Part shown: in pieces, positions 32,654-42,663 of the stretch | Layout: every line of letters starts with the position of its first letter | How positions within the stretch are numbered: the stretch's first letter is position 1 | NCBI RefSeq assembly: GCF_000235425.2 | Contig: NZ_KI912266.1 | Coordinates: forward strand, 922,273 to 986,272 | From: Pseudofrankia saprophytica | GTDB lineage: Bacteria; Actinomycetota; Actinomycetes; Frankiales; Frankiaceae | DNA length: 64,000 nucleotides | Reading direction: 5' to 3' | Notes under the pieces: generated by a model | What the model saw: the letters and a program-made list of their open reading frames with translations, nothing else | Told to the model about the DNA's origin: nothing | Database searches by the model: none | Translations under genes and position numbers: made by a program

Positions 32654-32910
32654 CCGAGGACTTTCGGTCACGCACGAAAGTTGCGCCACTGAGTGACGAG
32701 TCAGATTCATGACGTAGGCATAGGTCGGCGCGCCGCGTGAGCTGGGATGGGCGCTGACGACTGTTCCGGGAAGACGCGAGAAGCTGTCCGTGACGGCTGC
32801 CCAGATTGCCGTCCGGGATGATGAAATGGCCGCGGGGAACGCCCGTTCGGGCCCGCGGGGCGGGGAAAGCTCGCCCGCCGGGCCGCGGCGGTACACGTCC
32901 CAACGCTGTT

Positions 32911-34908
32911 ATGGGGGGTGACGTGACGGCCGGTCCAGGCGCAATCCGAGTAGTGGCGGGACGTTATCGGCTTCTCGCTCCGCTGGGCGCGGGCGCGATG
33001 GGGACCGTCTGGCGCGCCTTCGACCAGCTCCTCGACGCCGAGGTCGCGCTCAAGGAGATCGAGTTCGCCGGCGGGGTGCCCGACGAGGAGCGCGCCGACC
33101 GGGTCGAGCGCGCGCTGCGCGAGGCCAGGCACGCGACGAAGCTGCGCGCCCACCCGCACGTCGTGACGATCCTCGACGTCGTCCTGGAGGACGGCCTGCC
33201 CTGGATCGTCATGGAGCTGGTGCCGTCCCGGTCGCTGTTCGACGTCGTTCGCGAGGACGGGCCCCTGCCGCCGGCCGAGGTCGCCCGCGTCGGCCTCGCG
33301 ATGGTCGACGCGCTCTCGGCCGCCGGTGAGTTCGGCGTCATCCACCGCGACGTCAAACCGTCGAACGTGCTGATGGCGCACGACGGCCGCGTCGTCCTCA
33401 CCGACTTCGGGATCGCGACCGCCGACGGTGATCCGACACTGACCGTGACCGGCGTTATCGGCACCCCGCTCTACATGGCCCCGGAACGGCTGAACAACGA
33501 GCCAGCCACATTGGAAGCTGACCTTTTCAGCCTTGGCGGCACTCTTTACTTCGCGGTAGAAGGTCAGGCCCCGTTCGCGCGGGAAAGCTTCAGCGCGATG
33601 CTCGCGGCGATCGTGCTCGCCCCGGCGCCACGGCCCCAGCACGCGGGACCGATCACCGCCGCGCTGCTCGGCCTGCTGGAGAAGAACCCAAGGACGCGGA
33701 TGCGCCCCGCCGCGGCTCGACAGATCTTCCTCGACACGATCCGCGCGGTCGACCCAAGCTATGTGGACGTCGACGCGACGGCGACCACGCCCCGCCGGAT
33801 CCGTGACGCGACCGTCGACATCCCGCCCACCCGGGTGCACGGCGGGACCGACCACCCGTCGGCGGACCGGGGCGTGCCGGGCCCGTCGCCGGCGGCGGCC
33901 GCCGCCTCCGTCGCCTCCCGCTCCTCCGCCGCCGGCCGGGCGGGCGGTGACCCCCGTCCCCAGCCGACGGGAACCCGGCCGCTGCCGCCCGCCGAGCTCA
34001 CCGCGCTCGAGGAGGACGGCGCGATCGCGCTGCGCTGGGCGCCGTCGCCCACGCCCGGCGTCGTCTACCGGGTGTTCCGCCTGATCGCGGACCCCGCCGC
34101 CCCGGGCGGCTGGCGCTCCCGCGGGCTCGGCACCACCGGGGTCACCGAGCTGTTCGACGCGGGAGCCCCCAAGGGTGTGCCGTTTCGCCATCAGGTCGTC
34201 GCGACCTTCCGCGACGCGACCGGGCACTCGGGCGGCGGCGGTGGCACCAGCCAGGAGCCGTCGCCGGCCGCGTCGGTCCCGGTCAGCACCGAGCCCCGCA
34301 TCCTCGTGCCCAGCGTGACGGCGCTGCGCGCCGACCTCGTCGGCGACTCGGTCGCGCTGTCCTGGCGCCCGATCCCCGGCCACAACGAGGTCGTCATCGA
34401 GCGGATCTTCGACGAGGCGTCGTCCTTCCAGGGGGCGATGCGCCGGTTCCGCGGGTCCGGCGGCCAGTACCTCGACAACGACGTCCAGGCCGGCGCGACC
34501 TACCGCTACCGCGTCTGGGTGGCCCCGGCCGTCGCCAGCGTCCTGTTCGACCCGTCGAGCTGCGCCGAGGTCACCGTCACCGCGGTGGCCCTCCCCCGCC
34601 CCGTGACCGACCTGGAGTGCCGGGCGACCCTGGCCGGGATCGCGCTGCGCTGGACGACGGTGCCCGGCGCCGTCGTCCAGCTCTACGCGACGCCGGTGGC
34701 GACGGGGTCGGGCCTGTCTGGTACCGGGCCGTTCGGGCCCGCGGGCCACGAGGTGCGCCGCGGCTCGCTGGAGGGCCGGGCCCGGTTCGTCGGTGAGAGC
34801 CGACGGGGCCGGTTCCTCGACCCCGAGGGCGGTTCGGGCGTCGTCTACACCCCGGTCAGCGTCGCCGGCGAGCGCGCCGTGATCGGCGCGGCCGTCACCC
34901 AGGTATGA
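32911..34908 (+). CDS. Ser/Thr protein kinase with C-terminal fibronectin-III-like modules
   Basis: 665 residues from the ATG at 32911; a GTG at 32923 behind GGGGGGTG is equally likely. Hanks kinase domain ~15-265: glycine loop LGAGAMGTVW, Lys48, HRDVKPSN with catalytic Asp147, DFG at 165-167, and GTPLYMAPE. After a Pro/Ala linker come about three beta-sandwich-like repeats (IALRWAPSPTPGVVYRVFRL, VALSWRPIPGHNEVVIERIF, IALRWTTVPGAVVQLYA) resembling FnIII domains. No transmembrane helix is visible, unlike PknB, so the whole protein should be cytoplasmic. Confidence 0.88.
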   Translation: MGGDVTAGPGAIRVVAGRYRLLAPLGAGAMGTVWRAFDQLLDAEVALKEIEFAGGVPDEERADRVERALREARHATKLRAHPHVVTILDVVLEDGLPWIVMELVPSRSLFDVVREDGPLPPAEVARVGLAMVDALSAAGEFGVIHRDVKPSNVLMAHDGRVVLTDFGIATADGDPTLTVTGVIGTPLYMAPERLNNEPATLEADLFSLGGTLYFAVEGQAPFARESFSAMLAAIVLAPAPRPQHAGPITAALLGLLEKNPRTRMRPAAARQIFLDTIRAVDPSYVDVDATATTPRRIRDATVDIPPTRVHGGTDHPSADRGVPGPSPAAAAASVASRSSAAGRAGGDPRPQPTGTRPLPPAELTALEEDGAIALRWAPSPTPGVVYRVFRLIADPAAPGGWRSRGLGTTGVTELFDAGAPKGVPFRHQVVATFRDATGHSGGGGGTSQEPSPAASVPVSTEPRILVPSVTALRADLVGDSVALSWRPIPGHNEVVIERIFDEASSFQGAMRRFRGSGGQYLDNDVQAGATYRYRVWVAPAVASVLFDPSSCAEVTVTAVALPRPVTDLECRATLAGIALRWTTVPGAVVQLYATPVATGSGLSGTGPFGPAGHEVRRGSLEGRARFVGESRRGRFLDPEGGSGVVYTPVSVAGERAVIGAAVTQV

Positions 34909-35017: not shown

Positions 35018-35821
35018 GTGAGCGACGCGGCGCTGGTGCGCTACGAGGAGGTCGACGAGGCGACGGCGCGGACGGCGAGCCGGCGCTACTGGGAGGACGA
35101 GGCGAGCGCCTACCAGCGCGAGCACGGCCACTTCCTCGGCGACGTCGACTTCTGCTGGTGCCCGGAGGGGCTGCGCGAGTCCCAGGTCCGCCTGCTCGGC
35201 GACGTCGCCGGCCGCCGGGTGCTCGAGGTCGGCTGCGGGGCGGCACAGTGCGCCCGCTGGCTCGCCGCGCGGGGCGCCCAGGTCGTCGGCGTGGACATCT
35301 CCCTGGGTCAGCTCACCCACGGCGCCGAGCTCGGCCGGCGTACCGGGATTCCGGTGCCGCTGGCCCAGGCGGACGCGACCGCGCTGCCCATCGCCTCCGA
35401 GTCGGTCGACCTCGCCTGCTCGGCGTTCGGCGCCGTGCCGTTCGTGGCGGACAGTGGCGCGGTCATGCGCGAGGTCGCCCGAGTGCTGCGGCCCGGCGGG
35501 CGCTGGGTGTTCTCGACCAACCACCCGATGATCTGGTGCCTGCCGGACGAGCCGGACGAGGCCGGGATGCGGGTCATCCAGAGCTACTTCGACCGGCGCG
35601 CCTACCTGGAGCGTGACGACTCCGGCCGGCCGGCCTACGTCGAGACGCACCGGACCATGGGCGACCGGGTCCGCGAGATCGTGGCCGCCGGGCTCACGCT
35701 GCTCGACGTCGTCGAGCCGGAGTGGCCGGAGGACAACCGCGAGGTCTGGGGTCAGTGGGGCCCCGTCCGCGGCCACTACCTCCCCTCCACCGCGATCTTC
35801 GTCACCGCCAGGCCGCGCTAG
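35018..35821 (+). CDS. Class I SAM-dependent methyltransferase
   Basis: 267 residues from a GTG. Motif I VLEVGCGAAQCARWLAARGAQVVGVDIS at ~68-95 binds SAM, with acidic loop residues after strand 2, and VDLACSAFGAVPFV as motif II-like. Methyltransf_11 type. It follows the kinase gene after ~110 nt. Substrate unknown; ubiquinone/menaquinone-type or small-molecule substrates are possible. Confidence 0.9.
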   Translation: MSDAALVRYEEVDEATARTASRRYWEDEASAYQREHGHFLGDVDFCWCPEGLRESQVRLLGDVAGRRVLEVGCGAAQCARWLAARGAQVVGVDISLGQLTHGAELGRRTGIPVPLAQADATALPIASESVDLACSAFGAVPFVADSGAVMREVARVLRPGGRWVFSTNHPMIWCLPDEPDEAGMRVIQSYFDRRAYLERDDSGRPAYVETHRTMGDRVREIVAAGLTLLDVVEPEWPEDNREVWGQWGPVRGHYLPSTAIFVTARPR

Positions 35822-36165
35822 GCCCGAGCAAAGACCGGACCACCTCGCCTGGCACCTCTGCCTCGGCGCCGCGGGCGTACCGCCGAGATCAACGCATCGC
35901 ACCAGGTCACCGGGGATGTGAGCCCCTCACGACGGACGCTTCGGGGGACCGGCTAACGTACTTCATGGCGAAGAGTCGCACTGGCCCCACTCAACCCCTG
36001 AGTGACCCATTCGACAACGACGCCCGCTTCTGCCCCACTTGGAGAACAACGAGCCGGCCTGCCGCAGGCCGATCCGGCTTGCCCCGTTATGTTTGGCCCC
36101 GCGTTCGCAGTTAGGGGCTGACTGTGTACCACGCCAACCTCACTACCGGGGAGGAATCGCCCACG
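35822..36165. other. Intergenic region upstream of the envelope cluster
   Basis: 344 bases without a credible gene. Slightly lower GC near 35940-36000 and 36080-36130. GGGGAGGAA, the ribosome binding site of the next gene, ends it. No promoter could be placed with confidence. Confidence 0.4.
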
Positions 36166-36690
36166 ATGCGACTCACCCCGGTAGTTCGTCTACGCGCCGC
36201 GGCCGTGCTGGCCGCCGGCGCGCTCGTGGTCACGGCTGCCGGTTGCTCGACCAGCGCCGACGACACGGCCTTTACTCCGGCCGCGACGGGGACCCGGGCG
36301 AAGCCAACCATCGTCCCCAACGAGCTGCCGCCGATCGGCAAGTTCATCAGGCAGTCCGACGGCAGCCAGGTGACGACGGTGAGCTCGGACTATCTGTTCG
36401 ACGTCGGCAGCGACCAGCTGCTGCCGGAGGCGACCCAGGCCCTCGCCGAGATCGTGCCGACCCTGCGCGAGCACGCCGGAGAGATCCAGATCGTCGGTTA
36501 CACCGATGGTCTCGGCTCCACCGACGCGAACCTGGAGTTGTCCAGGCGCCGCGGCGACGCGGTGAAGGCAGTCCTCGTCGGGGACGGCATCGACGGCTCG
36601 GTCCTTCAGGTTGTCCCGAAGGGTGAGGATGGCGCGCAGGACGGCGTGCCGGACTCCACCCGCCGCAAGGTGGAGATCGTCCTCAAGTGA
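36166..36690 (+). CDS. OmpA-C-like peptidoglycan-binding lipoprotein
   Basis: 174 residues from the ATG at 36166, 13 nt after GGGGAGG. Signal peptide with lipobox VVTAAGC (Cys26), a linker, then an OmpA/MotB-type C-terminal domain (YLFDVGSDQLLPEATQALAEI ... VGYTDGLGSTDANLELSRRRGDAVKAVL) with the conserved Asp and Arg that contact diaminopimelate. It should anchor to the membrane and grip peptidoglycan. The stop overlaps the GTG of the vWA-like lipoprotein gene (GTGA), implying a shared complex. Confidence 0.88.
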   Translation: MRLTPVVRLRAAAVLAAGALVVTAAGCSTSADDTAFTPAATGTRAKPTIVPNELPPIGKFIRQSDGSQVTTVSSDYLFDVGSDQLLPEATQALAEIVPTLREHAGEIQIVGYTDGLGSTDANLELSRRRGDAVKAVLVGDGIDGSVLQVVPKGEDGAQDGVPDSTRRKVEIVLK

Positions 36691-37496
36691 GCACCCTCAA
36701 CGCCACCCGCCTGCGTAGCCGGCTCGCCATGACCCTCGCCGGTCTGCTGGTTCTGATGCCCGTGCTGGCTGGCTGCGACCTGAACAGCCTCCTCGGCAAG
36801 AAGGCTGGCGACTGCTCGGCCTACCAGGAAAAGACGACGAAGAAGGGCGCGACGAGACCCCTTCTCCTCGTCCTGCTGGACCTGTCCAACAACTCCGCCG
36901 CCACCGGCGAGCAGGTCGCGACGGCCATGCGCCCCTACATCGACATAGCGCTCGCCAATGGCCAGTACGTCAAGGTCATCGCCAGTGGCGGCACCGGCAC
37001 CGGCATGAAGACCTTCCCCTGCTTCGCCGGCGACAAGCCGTTCCTCGTCAAGCGCGCCAACAGCACTCGGCAGGCCAAGGACCGCGGCAAGGGCGGCGAG
37101 GCGCTGCAGACGGAGTTCAGCCACGTCGTGCAGGAGACCCCGGTCGGCGCGACCGGCAGCGTCACCAGCCTGCTTGGCGCCGTCAACGACGACATCCAGT
37201 CCTTGCGCAACACCCCCGGCGTGAAGCTCGGCGACGTCACGGTGGTCGTCTGGAGCGACCTGATGGGCACCGGCGAGCAGGGCGACTGCATGAACCTGGA
37301 CAACAAGCAGGCGACCGTGGGCGTGGCCGAGGGCATCGTCGAGCGCTGCTTCGCGACTTCACAGATCAGTGCCGTCAAGGACGCCAAGATCCGGTTCATT
37401 GGCACGAGCCAGGGGGACCTTACGGCCCCCCAGCAGGATCTTTCGCGCTACCTGAGAGGCGAACTGTGTCGGCGGTTGAGCAGTGACTGCAGCTAG
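36687..37496 (+). CDS. vWA-like lipoprotein of unknown function
   Basis: 269 residues from a GTG overlapping the previous stop. The signal peptide ends in a lipobox PVLAGC (Cys30). The body has a Rossmann-like core: PLLLVLLDLSNNSAATGEQVATAMRPYIDIAL, VKVIASGGTGTG, LGDVTVVVWSDLMG, IRFIGTSQGDLT. It resembles a von Willebrand A domain with a partial metal site (DLSNN instead of DxSxS). Four or more extra cysteines may form disulphides. Likely a surface partner of the OmpA-like protein. Confidence 0.78.
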   Translation: MSTLNATRLRSRLAMTLAGLLVLMPVLAGCDLNSLLGKKAGDCSAYQEKTTKKGATRPLLLVLLDLSNNSAATGEQVATAMRPYIDIALANGQYVKVIASGGTGTGMKTFPCFAGDKPFLVKRANSTRQAKDRGKGGEALQTEFSHVVQETPVGATGSVTSLLGAVNDDIQSLRNTPGVKLGDVTVVVWSDLMGTGEQGDCMNLDNKQATVGVAEGIVERCFATSQISAVKDAKIRFIGTSQGDLTAPQQDLSRYLRGELCRRLSSDCS

Positions 37497-37517
37497 CCGC
37501 CCGGCGGCCACCGTGAG

Positions 37518-37553
37518 CCGCGTGGTTTCACCCACCAGGGTGACACCACGCGG
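37518..37553 (+). terminator. 16-bp hairpin after the lipoprotein pair
   Basis: Arms 37518-37533 and 37538-37553 pair with one mismatch and a 4-nt loop, 21 nt after the stop at 37496. It could attenuate or end transcription before the two membrane-protein genes. Confidence 0.65.
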
Positions 37554-37694
37554 CCTTGCCGTCGGCGGGACCAAACCGGCCGCCACGGGCTACGCACGCA
37601 TCAGGGCCACCCAGCCAGCAACAGGCGCGCTGCCACGCCGCCTGCACGCCGCCGGAGGCCTCATCACTGAGGGTTATGGACCGGAGGCACCGGT

Positions 37695-38288
37695 ATGAGC
37701 ATTTACGAGCAGCAACCTAGGCCTGGGACTGAATCGACCACCAATCCGGACGGGTCGTTCATCGCGTCCACGCAGACGATGGCCCGTGCGAAAAAGGCCC
37801 GGGGCAGCGCCTTCAGCGAACATCGGGACCAGCACTACGCCCCGGCGCTCATGCGGTCTGCCGTCGTCATCTTCATCTGTGGCCTCTCGATGGTGCTGGT
37901 CGTCGGCTTCCTCTGGCTCACGATGCCGTCCTCGTCGTCGATCCGGGTCTCCGTCAGCGGCTCGATCTTCGTGACGGCGATCGGCTTCTTCCTGTCCGGC
38001 AACACCTTCCGGCTGCGTGACGTCCGTCGGCGCATCGGCAACCGTGCCCGGGCGGGCCTGATCGCTCCGATCGACGCGCTTTCCGAGCTCCCGCCACGAG
38101 ACACCATCCAGCGCCGCTTCATGATCGGCGCGGTCGCGGCGTTCGTGGGCCTGACAGCCCTGGTCTTCATCGCGGTCTTCGCGAACGGCGATGGCTCGGG
38201 CAGCGAGACGGTCATCGCCCCGATCATCGGCGCGATCTTCGCGATGCTGTGCTTCCTCGCCGGAAGCTACTCCCGACCGATCGACTGA
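37695..38288 (+). CDS. Four-span membrane protein of unknown function
   Basis: 197 residues, ATG at 37695 with GGAGG 8-10 nt upstream. A ~50-residue hydrophilic, basic N-terminus precedes two pairs of hydrophobic helices: ~54-76 and ~86-102, then a basic loop (RLRDVRRRIGNRARAGLIAPIDALSELPPRDTIQRR), ~142-162 and ~174-192. No known domain. Its position between lipoproteins and a coiled-coil membrane protein suggests an envelope assembly. Confidence 0.75.
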   Translation: MSIYEQQPRPGTESTTNPDGSFIASTQTMARAKKARGSAFSEHRDQHYAPALMRSAVVIFICGLSMVLVVGFLWLTMPSSSSIRVSVSGSIFVTAIGFFLSGNTFRLRDVRRRIGNRARAGLIAPIDALSELPPRDTIQRRFMIGAVAAFVGLTALVFIAVFANGDGSGSETVIAPIIGAIFAMLCFLAGSYSRPID

Positions 38289-38452
38289 CGGCCACGACGC
38301 CCGGCTGATTCGCATGGCTACTCGACGACCGACCCAGGTATTTCCCATCCAGGCCGAAGCCCCCCACCGGCCCCGCACACCGGCCAGGACAGACGTCTCG
38401 GCCCAGAACCACATCGACACAGGCACGAAGAGATACGGAAAGCGAGACCCAG

Positions 38453-39532
38453 GTGCTGCGCAGGGGTAACCAGCCGGGGAAACTGGCCAAGCAGCTGATT
38501 CGCCGGGTCGGGGACGCCGACATCGCGCTGGCTGGCGCCGAGACCCGTCCCAAGGTCCTCAAGACCCTCGAGGACGCCGAGGTGCAGGAGATCCGGGCAG
38601 CGACCCGGGCCGACGCTCGGTCGCTCGAGGAGGAGATCGCCGAGCTGCGCACCGAGATCGACGCTCGGGCGGAGCGACGCGAGCGTCAGTCCGAGCTGAT
38701 GCGCCACAAGATCGAGCAGGGTCGCCTGTGGCGCAGCGTCGGCGTGCAGGAGCGCATTCCCCAACTGCACCTGGGGAAGGGCGCGCGCACCGTCGTGCTC
38801 CTGGTGCTCGCGGCGCTGGACTTCTACGTGTTCGCGAGCGCCTACGCCGCCCTCGACGACACCCCGCAGTTCAGCGTGGGCTGGTGGCTCGGCGGTCTGC
38901 TCGGCATCGCGGTGTTCTTCGCCGGCTTCGCCCTCTCGCACGCCATCAAGGGCTCGATCTTCGCCAGGGCCCAGCGGCAGTTCCTGTCGGCGGCCGACAA
39001 CGGCCGGCTCGTGATCGACCAGGACATCCGCCCGCAGCTGGTGGACTCCAAGTCGTCCCCGCTCGCCCTGTGGCTCACCGCGCTCATCTTCCTGGTCCTC
39101 ATGATCGCCGGTGTGCTGGTGCGGGTGGAGGGCTCGGCCTCCGACGTCAGCCTGCCGCTGATCCTGTTCCAGGGCCTCATCCCGCTGGTGGCCGTCGTCG
39201 TCGAGCTCTACCTGCACGACCCGACCGAGCGCGACGACCCCATGCCGAACTGGCGTGACCGCCGGCTGGAGCGTCACCTCGCCAAGGCCGAGCGCCGCCT
39301 GCGCGTGGTGGCCGCCCAGGTCGAGGCGAGGGTCGCCCAGGTCGAGAAGCTCTACCGCGTCGAGGAGGCGATCCTCGACGTCGAGCAGAAGGACATGGGC
39401 CTGCGGCACACCACCGACCTGGTCCTCAACGGCGGCCACATCCCGACGGTCTCCAGCAACGGCCGGGTGGCCGAGGTCGACCGCGACCAGCTCGAGAAGA
39501 CCATCAAGATGGCCAGGGGCAGCCGCTCCTGA
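38453..39532 (+). CDS. Coiled-coil membrane protein of unknown function
   Basis: 359 residues from a GTG at 38453. Residues ~40-90 are charged and heptad-like (RSLEEEIAELRTEIDARAERRERQSELM), followed by four hydrophobic helices (~108-126, ~142-162, ~200-220, ~232-250). A second long coiled coil follows at ~265-325 (RRLERHLAKAERRLRVVAAQVEARVAQVEKLYRVEEAIL). No family recognised. The coiled-coil-membrane-coiled-coil plan suits a scaffold or mechanosensing partner to the lipoproteins upstream. Confidence 0.78.
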   Translation: MLRRGNQPGKLAKQLIRRVGDADIALAGAETRPKVLKTLEDAEVQEIRAATRADARSLEEEIAELRTEIDARAERRERQSELMRHKIEQGRLWRSVGVQERIPQLHLGKGARTVVLLVLAALDFYVFASAYAALDDTPQFSVGWWLGGLLGIAVFFAGFALSHAIKGSIFARAQRQFLSAADNGRLVIDQDIRPQLVDSKSSPLALWLTALIFLVLMIAGVLVRVEGSASDVSLPLILFQGLIPLVAVVVELYLHDPTERDDPMPNWRDRRLERHLAKAERRLRVVAAQVEARVAQVEKLYRVEEAILDVEQKDMGLRHTTDLVLNGGHIPTVSSNGRVAEVDRDQLEKTIKMARGSRS

Positions 39533-39758: not shown

Positions 39759-42011
39759 GTGCGGGGTGGACGGATCGGGCTGGCGCTCGCGGGGGCCGGG
39801 ACCGCGGCGACGGTCACGGTCGTCGGGCTCGGCGTGTGGCTGCGGCTCGCCGCCTGGGACGCGCCGGCCGCCGACGAGGTGATGGCCTGGTGGCTGTCCA
39901 GCGCCGTGGCCGCGCTCGGGTACGGCCTGCTGGGCGGGCGGCTCGCGGCCCGGCGCCCGCGGTTGTCGGTCGGCTGGCTGCTGCTCGGCTTCGGGCTGGC
40001 GAACGCGCTCGCGCTCGCCGGGCCCGGCTGGCTGGTGTACGAGCTGGCGCACCGACCGGAGCGGGTCTCGACGGCGGCCAGGGCCGCGATGTGGGTGGGC
40101 AACGCCACCTGGATGATCGCCGTGATCGGCACGGTGAGCGTGCTGCCGCTGCTGCTGCCCGGCGGGCGCCTGCCGTCGCGGCGCTGGCGGCCCGTGCTGG
40201 CCGTGGCCGTCATGGCCGTCGTCGGCTCCACCGCGCAGGCGGCGGCCACGCCCTACGGCACCTTCGCCCCGACGCTCCCCCGCTATGGCGTCCGCAACCC
40301 GACCGGCCTGAGCTGGGCCGTCGAGGCCTGGGTGACAGCCCCGCTCGTCGCGCTGACCGCGACGACGGCGCTCGCGGCCCTGTGGTCGCTGTCACGCCGC
40401 GGTCGCGGCCGCCCCGCCGGTACCAACGGCTCCGCCGGCGCCGATCGCACCACCGGTCCCGGCAGTACTGCGAGTACCGCCGGCGCCGCCGGTACTACCG
40501 GTACCGCCGGCGACCCGGCCGAGCGGGAGCGGCGGCAGGCCCGCTGGGTGCTGCTCGGGCTCGCCGCGTCGGTGGTCCTCTTCGTCGCCGGGTTCTGGCT
40601 GGGACCGGTCCTCACGGCGCTCGCGATGCTGCCGCTACCGGTGGCCTGCCTGGTCGCGGTGCTGCGCTACCAGATGTGGGACGTCGATCTGGTGGTGAGC
40701 CGCGCGCTCGCCTACGGCGCGCTCACCGTCGTCATCGGCGCCTGCTACGCCGCCTGCGTCGGGTTCGGCGGCGCCCTGCTCGGCCGGACCACCGGGGCGC
40801 CGCTGGTGGCGACGGCGCTGGTCGCGGTGTTCGCCGAGCCGCTCGCGCGCCGGCTGCGCGCCGAGGCGAACCGGCTGGTCTTCGGCGGCGAGCACGACCC
40901 GCGCACCGTACTGAGCCTGGTCGGCGCCCGGCTGCGGGCCGCCGAGGACGCCGACACGATCAGCCGCCGCGTCCTTCCCGAGCTCGCCGCCGCCGCCGCG
41001 ACGGCGCTGCGGGTGCCGTACGCGGCGATCGAGGTGGTGGGCGGCGAGACGATCGAGCACGGTACGCCCCCGCCCGCGAGCCCGGTGAGCGGCTCGGGCA
41101 ACGTCCCGGGCGACCGTCCCGGAACCGGCGAGGCCGCCGGGCCTGCGGCCAGACAGGGCCTGGACCGGATCCCGCTGGAGTACGCCGGAACGAGGGTCGG
41201 GACGTTGCTGCTGGCCCGGCGGGCAGACTGGCTGCGCCCGGCGGAGCGACGGCTGCTCATCGAGGTCACCGAGAACGCCGGTGTCGCGCTGCACTCCGTC
41301 GTCCTTGCCCGCGACCTGCGTCGATCTCGCGAGCAACTGGTCGCCGCGCGGGAGGAGGAGCGCCGCCGGCTCTACCGCGAGCTGCATGACGGCTTCGGGC
41401 CGGTGCTGGCCGCCTCGGCGCTGCAGGCCGAGACCGCGCGTGACCTGCTGCCCGCGGACCCGCCCGCCGCCGCGCGGATCCTCGACCGGGTCGTCCCGCG
41501 GCTGCGCGGGACCGTCGACGACGTGCGCGCGCTCGTGCACGGCCTGCGCCCACCGGCGCTCGACGACCTCGGTCTCGGCCCGGCCGTGCGCGAGCTGGCC
41601 ACCCGCTTCGCCGCGCCGGGCCTGCGGGTCCAGGTGACGGCCGACGAGGACCTGGGCACCCTGCCTGCGGCCGCCGAGGTCGCGGCGTACCGGATCGTCG
41701 CCGAGGCGCTGACGAACGCCGTCCGCCACGGCCGCCCGTCGCTGCTGCGGGTGGTCCTGGCCAGGAAGCCCGAGGGCCTGGACGTCCAGGTGATCGATGA
41801 CGGCCGCGGGCTGGGAGCGTCGGACGCCGGCGATCCCGCCGGCGAGGCCGGTGAGGCGGTGCCGGCCGCCGCGGGCGGGATGGGGCTGCGCTCGATGCGC
41901 GAGCGGGTCGACGAGCTGTGCGGGACGTTCGAGATCGGCCCCGGCCCGGACGGCCGCGGCGCCCGGGTGGCCGCCCTGCTCCCGGCGGCATCAGGCACGA
42001 CCGAAGGGTGA
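39759..42011 (+). CDS. Membrane sensor histidine kinase, NarL/HisKA_3 type
   Basis: 750 residues from the GTG at 39759. About eight hydrophobic segments occupy ~1-340, broken by a Gly/Ser/Thr-rich cytoplasmic loop (~215-250). Then comes a GAF-like region (~380-510), the DHp H-box YRELHDGFGP with His543, the N-box EALTNAVRH, VIDDGRGLG, and GMGLRSMRERVDEL. It phosphorylates the response regulator 7 nt downstream. Its ligand-sensing N-terminus is not a known input domain. It may monitor the envelope complex encoded just upstream, which is inference from position. Confidence 0.9.
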   Translation: MRGGRIGLALAGAGTAATVTVVGLGVWLRLAAWDAPAADEVMAWWLSSAVAALGYGLLGGRLAARRPRLSVGWLLLGFGLANALALAGPGWLVYELAHRPERVSTAARAAMWVGNATWMIAVIGTVSVLPLLLPGGRLPSRRWRPVLAVAVMAVVGSTAQAAATPYGTFAPTLPRYGVRNPTGLSWAVEAWVTAPLVALTATTALAALWSLSRRGRGRPAGTNGSAGADRTTGPGSTASTAGAAGTTGTAGDPAERERRQARWVLLGLAASVVLFVAGFWLGPVLTALAMLPLPVACLVAVLRYQMWDVDLVVSRALAYGALTVVIGACYAACVGFGGALLGRTTGAPLVATALVAVFAEPLARRLRAEANRLVFGGEHDPRTVLSLVGARLRAAEDADTISRRVLPELAAAAATALRVPYAAIEVVGGETIEHGTPPPASPVSGSGNVPGDRPGTGEAAGPAARQGLDRIPLEYAGTRVGTLLLARRADWLRPAERRLLIEVTENAGVALHSVVLARDLRRSREQLVAAREEERRRLYRELHDGFGPVLAASALQAETARDLLPADPPAAARILDRVVPRLRGTVDDVRALVHGLRPPALDDLGLGPAVRELATRFAAPGLRVQVTADEDLGTLPAAAEVAAYRIVAEALTNAVRHGRPSLLRVVLARKPEGLDVQVIDDGRGLGASDAGDPAGEAGEAVPAAAGGMGLRSMRERVDELCGTFEIGPGPDGRGARVAALLPAASGTTEG

Positions 42012-42018
42012 GGCACAC

Positions 42019-42663
42019 GTGCGCGTTCTCGTGGTCGATGACCACCCGTTGTTCCGCGAGGGGCTGACCATCGCGATCGAGACGATGCCCGACGTCGAGG
42101 TCGTCGGTGAGGCGGGCGACGGTGACGAGGCCGTCGAGGCCACCGGACGGCTCGCGCCCGACATCGTCGTGATGGACCTGCACATGCCCGGAACCAATGG
42201 CATCGACGCGACCAGACGGATCGTCGGCGCGCACCCCGGCGTGGCTGTCCTCGTCCTGACGATGCTCGATGGCGATGACTCGGTGTTCGCGGCGATGCGC
42301 GCCGGCGCCCGCGGCTACCTGCTCAAGGGCGCCGACCGCCAGGAGATCGCCCGCGCGCTGCGCGCCGTCGCCGCCGGCGAGGTGGTCTTCAGCGCGGCGA
42401 TCGCGAGCAGGGTGCTCGCCTGGTTCGCCAGCGGCGGGCGGGGGGCGCTCGCCCCGTTCCCCGAGCTCACCGACCGGGAGCGGGAGATCCTCGACCTGGT
42501 CGCCCGCGGCCTCACGAACCCGGCCATCGCCCGCCGGCTGCACCTGTCCGACAAGACCATCCGTAACCACGTCTCGAACGTCTTCACCAAGCTTCAGGTC
42601 GCCGACCGCGCGGAGGCCGTCGCCAGAGCCCGCGACGCCGGCCTAGGCACCGGTCCGCTGTAG
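42019..42663 (+). CDS. NarL/LuxR-family response regulator
   Basis: 214 residues from a GTG 7 nt after the kinase stop. Receiver with D7/D8, phospho-acceptor D53 (VVMDLHMPG), and Lys in YLLKGAD. LuxR HTH ~148-210 (LTDREREILDLVARGLTNPAIARRLHLSDKTIRNHVSNVFTKL). It is the cognate regulator of the adjacent kinase. Confidence 0.95.
   Translation: MRVLVVDDHPLFREGLTIAIETMPDVEVVGEAGDGDEAVEATGRLAPDIVVMDLHMPGTNGIDATRRIVGAHPGVAVLVLTMLDGDDSVFAAMRAGARGYLLKGADRQEIARALRAVAAGEVVFSAAIASRVLAWFASGGRGALAPFPELTDREREILDLVARGLTNPAIARRLHLSDKTIRNHVSNVFTKLQVADRAEAVARARDAGLGTGPL

Follow-up and report, generated by a model that had tools for sequence, protein, structure and literature searches.

The Frankia family consists of soil and plant-root bacteria. 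One of its members, Pseudofrankia saprophytica (family Frankiaceae), contains a row of four genes, here called A, B, C, and D, whose products appear to hold the cell wall on the outside and to reach through the membrane into the cell. Is this row a unit or a chance neighbourhood, and what could such an arrangement do? The four genes were read in the order A-B-C-D, all on the plus strand, from the open frames of a 64,000-nt window (the whole stretch of DNA that was analysed; coordinates of the cluster are positions in this window, Table 1). Genome comparisons point to a conserved module that appears to be specific to the Frankiaceae, and a wall-anchored relay across the envelope is tentatively proposed as its mechanism.

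Relatives were searched with a pass threshold of E 0.001 in a set of 35 Frankiaceae genomes, the family being assigned via named loci. D was found in 28 of them, B in the same 28, and C in 27. A adjoins B in 27 family genomes, and in the 28th (G034) the neighbourhood is interrupted by a contig end. Cluster-free are five genomes of group g3, which we take to be Protofrankia and in which no genome (out of five) carries the cluster, one of g4 (63% complete), and one of g7. Furthermore, two patterns of D were run against 84,980 species genomes, a search that distant relatives lacking those patterns would escape. Each of the 19 loci that it yielded carries Frankia, Parafrankia, or Pseudofrankia in its title. 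A-B-C-D is complete and kept in order in 17 of these 19 loci. The exceptions are L047, which begins at a contig edge within B, and L035 of a metagenome-assembled genome (MAG), which consists of A-B-D without C and where C was possibly lost or is not required. The same MAG locus (L026 2539-5204) lies beside two histidine-kinase-like genes. In genome G011, A-B-D occurs in a third genomic context, with C missing.

No relative of D was detected in the 62 genomes outside the family that were included in the same search. In a wider phylum sample D occurs in 1 out of 396 genomes, namely the own genome, and in a class sample in 18 out of 256, every one within the Frankiaceae. In case of B, weak partial matches were observed outside the family in 1 of 396 phylum genomes (E 6e-4) and in 6 of 251 class genomes (E 0.009-0.08), which are taken as chance. 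Except for one such weak partial match of B, nothing outside the Frankiaceae passes the threshold for B, C, or D. Likewise, no relatives of the D and B of a second, diverged copy of the cluster (see below) were found in plasmids, and none of D in viral contigs. Due to the co-occurrence in 27-28 of 35 genomes and the independent second copy, the four genes are, as judged by their distribution, a conserved unit rather than a chance neighbourhood. The original prediction had proposed to check whether the four genes co-occur in related genomes and whether their order recurs across the Actinobacteria. The former is supported by our counts, the latter is not, and the module appears to be kept together almost only in the Frankiaceae.

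The second A-B-C-D set is located on contig C2 of the own genome (L021 6844-9995) and shares with the set of the window an identity of 28% for A, 27-28% for B, 23-24% for C, and 32% for D (23-33% overall; 28, 27, 24, and 32% in the alignments of nine and ten rows). It is flanked, in order, by genes for a WD40-repeat protein with an apparent kinase end, a patatin, and a NACHT protein on one side, and for a PIN-like and an Hsp70-like protein on the other. In the other family genomes no second copy was found by searches with B, C, and D (1 of 35, the own genome). Since the own genome carries this diverged set in another context, the quartet behaves, on the evidence of its gene content, as one module that is inherited and duplicated together, and the joint recurrence of all four genes at such low identity is the strongest evidence that A to D act together.

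Across the second copy, G+C drops from approximately 0.72 to 0.67-0.70. The second copy is followed immediately by a 6.4 kb segment whose two ends are marked by a 45-bp sequence, perfectly repeated, that corresponds to the 3' end of a tRNA-Val gene. A Phage_integrase gene lies close to this tRNA gene, and a PIN_8 gene is located at the opposite end. This integrative element spans C2:935017-941473 of the own genome (L021 13018-19001, L076 902-974). As the repeat comes after the Hsp70-like gene, the second copy is, by this sequence boundary, beside and not inside the element. No further copy of the repeat was found across approximately 110 kb to its left. The NACHT, PIN-like, Hsp70-like, and PIN_8 genes form an island-like run around the second copy (L021 3137-14803), and for its PIN-like gene no relative except the gene itself was found among 296 genomes.

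A is the only member of the quartet with a recognised family. As proposed for it earlier, it is an OmpA-like lipoprotein with the residues required for wall binding: Pfam assigns PF00691 (OmpA) with 53.1 bits at a cut-off of 27.2 (E 4e-14), and Asp114, Leu125-Ser126, and Arg129 (numbered from the ATG at 36166) are present in 9 of 9 aligned rows. In OmpA-C domains, the Asp and the Arg are the residues that grip peptidoglycan, and A may be able to hold peptidoglycan via Asp114 and Arg129. Its lipobox Cys is found in 8 of the 9 rows; the A protein of the second copy has instead a hydrophobic anchor without an Asp. Among solved structures, profile comparison relates A to OmpA, YiaD, YfiB, Pal, and M. 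tuberculosis Rv0899 (PDB 2lbt and 2l26).

The start of A deserves attention, since the original prediction placed it at 36166. The context GTGTA[C/T]CACGCC and an AGGGG box before it are kept at the upstream GTG in 6 of 6 aligned loci, and the position of the ATG at 36166 reads AGG in at least 2 of the 6. Due to both observations, the GTG at 36124 is most likely the start of A, with the ATG being internal, 14 codons downstream. At the other end of the gene, the TGA stop of A (36688-36690) is overlapped by the GTG start of B at 36687, which is the GTGA overlap noticed before.

For B, no match at E 1 or below was obtained in Pfam, NCBIfam, PHROGs, or PADLOC, and solved relatives by sequence are lacking as well. 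The AlphaFold2 model of B has a predicted local distance difference test score (pLDDT) of 82.2 and a predicted template modelling score (pTM) of 0.79. Compared to solved structures (VIA), its best match has a Z score of 12.0 with a root mean square deviation (rmsd) of 3.4 over 157 aligned residues, the listed rows being of the von Willebrand A (vWA) fold as far as their titles tell. Foldseek likewise returned vWA matches (best E 9.6e-5), and six matches at E 0.001 or below in a viral structure library are mostly general vWA proteins. According to its model, B folds as a vWA (Rossmann-like) domain.

Residue counts for B, C, and D were taken from alignments of up to 23 rows, those of the metal site of B over the readable rows. 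Asp65 is found in 22 of 22 readable rows, position 67 is Ser or Thr in 20 of 22, and position 69 is Asn in 22 of 22. Thr160 is invariant (23/23), and Asp191 occurs in 22 of 23 rows, being replaced by Asn in the second copy. A complete metal ion-dependent adhesion site, DxSxS...T...D, is hence absent, with Asp-x-Ser-x-Asn in place of DxSxS, and from these residues the metal site of B is judged to be degenerate. The vWA-like fold with an incomplete DxSxS that had been suspected from the sequence is confirmed in both parts. Cys43, Cys112, Cys201, and Cys221 are kept in every readable row, fitting two putative extracellular disulfides.

C and D have only sub-threshold family matches in Pfam, NCBIfam, PHROGs, and PADLOC, and a profile comparison of C with D gave no similarity. 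None of B, C, and D has a match above the curated cut-offs of these collections, and C and D match no known transporter above them, the latter in line with the original prediction. The predicted topology, four spans in C and a four-span region between two coiled coils in D, is matched by four hydrophobic windows in the hydropathy profile of each protein. In C, an Arg-rich loop is situated between spans 2 and 3, with Arg111, Arg119, Arg135, Arg140, and Arg141 in 23 of 23 rows. The spans of D extend over residues 114-132, 144-162, 205-223, and 236-254. Span 1 contains Asp123, span 4 contains Glu251, and His163 is located where span 2 ends; all three are found in 23 of 23 rows, as are Arg224 and Asp256, the second copy included.

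Compared to Frankia QA3, D of the window keeps 90 of 108 and 84 of 97 positions in its coils and 102 of 152 in its spans. Compared to D of the second copy, 60 of 151 positions are kept in the spans and 27 of 105 and 21 of 85 in the coils. Because the coils are better kept than the spans in the former comparison and the spans better than the coils in the latter, we read D as a probable shared membrane core with copy-specific cytoplasmic partners. The structure model of D is of low confidence (pLDDT 69, pTM 0.49) and matches mainly coiled-coil proteins. Foldseek gave nothing below E 0.001 for D, and solved relatives by sequence are limited to two chance matches.

Since A may hold the wall and B would offer a protein-binding fold outside, a relay across the envelope is the simplest mechanism. 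A, B, C, and D would form one envelope-spanning complex that is anchored in the wall and passes a signal or an ion-coupled movement to cytoplasmic coils, a reading that we favour while rating its chance slightly below even. A would grip peptidoglycan and constitute, together with B, the outer part, which lipids would hold at the external side of the single membrane. D and C would be the membrane core, in which the embedded Asp123, His163, and Glu251 would respond to ions, pH, or tension, and the resulting movement would pass to the two cytoplasmic coiled coils of D. Each system could have its own partners that bind to these coils; for the chromosomal copy, the Ser/Thr kinase encoded next to it is the prime candidate. 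Such a relay would work like the wall-anchored machines of the Tol-Pal, MotAB, or ZorAB type without being related to them. A more detailed version, in which wall-held A and B clamp a core of C and D, the coils are driven by an Asp/His/Glu triad that senses or conducts ions, and the same core with different coils takes a house-keeping role with the Ser/Thr kinase and a conflict role with NACHT, PIN, and Hsp70-like partners, is regarded as improbable.

Several observations weigh against the relay. The buried charges of D are possibly just structural, and its structure model is weak. C is missing in G011 and is thus not always needed, and the kinase is not beside the module in this genome either. 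In case of the second copy, the only counterpart, encoded approximately 5 kb ahead of it, is a different protein of the WD40 type whose end looks like a kinase (label by eye), and A of this copy is without the lipobox Cys. A rival explanation is a passive tether or scaffold that connects wall and membrane in hyphal septa, sporangia, or vesicle envelopes and does not signal at all. The OmpA-C grip, the lipidated B, and the long coils suit scaffolding, and the Frankia group is filamentous and sporangial. Charged residues inside the spans and whole cytoplasmic tails are strictly conserved, though, which suggests more than tethering, and the cluster is absent from all five g3 genomes. A pure tether is considered unlikely. 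The surroundings of the second copy would fit a conflict or anti-phage module, in which a wall-anchored sensor, as in Zorya, would alert cytoplasmic effectors to damage of the envelope or to the entry of a phage, and of which the chromosomal copy would have been domesticated. The second copy is placed between a NACHT gene and PIN-like and Hsp70-like genes with a patatin nearby, it adjoins the integrase-bearing 6.4 kb element with its tRNA-Val repeat, it occurs in one of 35 family genomes, and OmpA-type effectors in conflict systems are described in the relevant part of Kaur 2020 (PMC7159879). However, PADLOC recognised no defence model in A to D beyond weak ZorB matches to the generic OmpA domain and gave two weak matches only among eight proteins of the second-copy neighbourhood. 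The main copy is, unlike typical defence genes, a fixed gene set in most of the family, and the association with conflict genes is limited to one locus, which leaves this explanation rather unlikely.

An ion-driven, motor-like machine, with D as a divergent stator of the MotA/ExbB/TolQ type and A as its wall anchor, would account for the buried acidic residues of D and for the OmpA-C domain, by which MotB and ZorB are anchored according to the sections of PMC11890865 dealing with them. On a second look, ExbB/TolQ chains were indeed among the matches of the D model (Z 6.7-7.3, rmsd 3.7-4.6, 134-148 aligned residues), but the model is of low confidence and for helical bundles a Z score below approximately 13 carries little meaning, so that these values are in the chance range. 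D has no Pfam match to PF01618 (MotA_ExbB), and the span with an Asp that MotB and ZorB possess is lacking in A, a lipoprotein. Homology of D to MotA/ExbB was rejected, as a profile comparison with 25 MotA sequences gave a probability of 0.3% with no span aligned (100% in the MotA-versus-MotA control), and a motor of this type is improbable. Very improbable is that the cluster belongs to the tubulin-like FtsZl1 membrane-remodelling operons, which contain the same kinds of parts, i.e., vWA, OmpA, protein kinase, and membrane proteins, in the operons presented in PMC2875224. The marker of these operons, PF13809, occurs in 12 of 35 family genomes and at another place (G000:C1:1605137), compared to 28 genomes for B and D, and two PF13809 loci examined have a large secreted vWA-like gene of their own and no OmpA gene recognised by eye. 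Identity of the two systems was rejected due to these separate loci and the unequal occurrence.

Table 1. Features of the A-B-C-D cluster and its surroundings in the window
Feature	Position	Strand	Description	Basis or remark
Gene A	36124..36690	+	OmpA-C (peptidoglycan-binding type) lipoprotein, 188 aa from GTG 36124	PF00691; start context; conserved residues
Gene B	36687..37496	+	lipoprotein, predicted vWA-type fold, 269 aa, degenerate metal site D-x-S/T-x-N	model, fold matches
Gene C	37695..38288	+	four-span membrane protein, 197 aa	hydropathy; family genome counts
Gene D	38453..39532	+	coiled coil, four spans, coiled coil, 359 aa, GTG start	hydropathy, model, conservation
GTTATGTTTGG block	36086..36096	+	approximately 28 nt 5' of the GTG start	possible TANNNT -10 element of A promoter
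Hairpin	37517..37554	+	between B and C, conserved in the window's genus	fold, covariation
Ser/Thr protein kinase	32806..34908	+	Pkinase E 2e-40	syntenic, flanking
S-adenosylmethionine methyltransferase	35018..35821	+	Methyltransf_11	syntenic, flanking; separate locus in cluster-free genomes
Membrane histidine kinase	39759..42011	+	HisKA_3/HATPase	neighbour, not member
Response regulator (presumed)	42019..42663	+		open frame; neighbour, not member

Genes for the Ser/Thr kinase and the methyltransferase are located upstream of the cluster in all 17 complete loci. The five g3 genomes retain a methyltransferase of 66-69% identity without the cluster; in the three g3 loci examined it lies near a gene family common to L110-L113 (fam10), which looks by eye like ribosomal protein S1. 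The pair of membrane kinase and regulator that was said to follow the cluster is indeed present, the regulator being a frame that we take to encode a response regulator, but it is outside the conserved unit. Of the eight genomes of the window's genus, four have the pair beside the cluster (L001, L003, L006/L027, and L007) and four do not (L022, L037, L039, and L042), and no Frankia or Parafrankia locus in the list has it there. Due to this restriction to four of eight genus genomes, it was rejected as a partner of the cluster. The vWA-MoxR, iSTAND, and GTPase conflict systems (PMC7159879) have a nucleoside triphosphatase core of the MoxR, STAND, or GTPase type in their operon. In the loci examined, no gene of this type was recognised next to the main copy, although no systematic family search of the neighbours was made; the second copy is preceded by the NACHT gene.

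Two non-coding features accompany the cluster. The GTTATGTTTGG block upstream of A shows no difference among the 6 aligned loci and is a possible -10 element (TANNNT) of an A promoter; a scan with the sigma-70 consensus found no site. The hairpin noticed after the second gene is well supported: the 104-nt fold of 37497-37600 has a z score of -5.0, and in an alignment of seven genus loci 93.8% of the cells of the stem pair, with 4 of 16 pairs changed on both sides. The covariation score was reached in 2 of 500 shuffled controls, and slid versions pair at 33-49%. Since no T run follows 3' of the stem, the hairpin is, from its sequence, not a canonical terminator. In the Parafrankia loci, the called C frame starts before the end of B; judged by this overlap, the hairpin is a feature of the genus and outside the definition of the module.

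Three unnamed families together with a wall-binding lipoprotein, so far found in the Frankiaceae only, represent a test case for the coupling of wall and cytoplasm in single-membrane filamentous bacteria. Natural controls are given by the cluster-free Protofrankia-like genomes and by the diverged second copy, and the conserved Asp, His, and Glu are well-defined targets for substitution. Should the relay or the ion-coupled reading hold, the module would represent an independent way of doing what the Tol-Pal and MotAB-type machines do.

Among known systems, several share parts with the cluster. The study on the FtsZl1 operons with vWA, OmpA, and kinase genes is reportedly by Makarova and Koonin (2010). 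As far as these Tubulin_2 (PF13809) operons are presented in PMC2875224, they share with the cluster a vWA protein, an OmpA-type wall binder, a kinase, and lineage-specific membrane proteins. The cluster differs by the lack of a tubulin or GTPase gene and by the degenerate metal site of B, and the Frankiaceae carry the FtsZl1 system separately. At the Tubulin_2 loci L069 and L074, the large secreted vWA-like gene is located in front and GTPase-like genes are located behind (neighbour labels by eye). With the ZorAB and MotAB ion motors, in the portion of PMC11890865 concerned with them, the cluster has in common an OmpA-type wall anchor and a membrane protein that has acidic residues within the membrane and long coils in the cytoplasm. 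Unlike these motors, D is without MotA_ExbB similarity and A is without an Asp-bearing span, and the cluster adds a vWA lipoprotein and a second four-span protein. In M. tuberculosis, OmpATb (Rv0899) has a BON domain before its OmpA domain and is encoded in an operon with small membrane partners, in which we know of no counterpart of the vWA lipoprotein or of D. A has no BON domain, as Pfam gives PF00691 alone. Common to both is an OmpA-C protein in an actinobacterial operon, as seen in the OmpATb portion of PMC3728290.

The closest entry in the literature on Frankia itself is an "OmpA/MotB" among the 52 Frankia-specific core secreted proteins (CcI3, ACN14a, and EAN1pec) listed in 2008 (PMC2266912), which, by gene number compared to position, is most likely protein A. 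Section 9 and Table 3 of that paper contain this one protein and neither the cluster nor B, C, D, or the second copy. No description of the cluster was found in main texts, supplements not being covered, including a word search of the main text of the Parafrankia soli exoproteome paper. Compared to all of these systems, what appears to be new here is a predicted wall-anchored, trans-envelope assembly that comprises three unnamed protein families.

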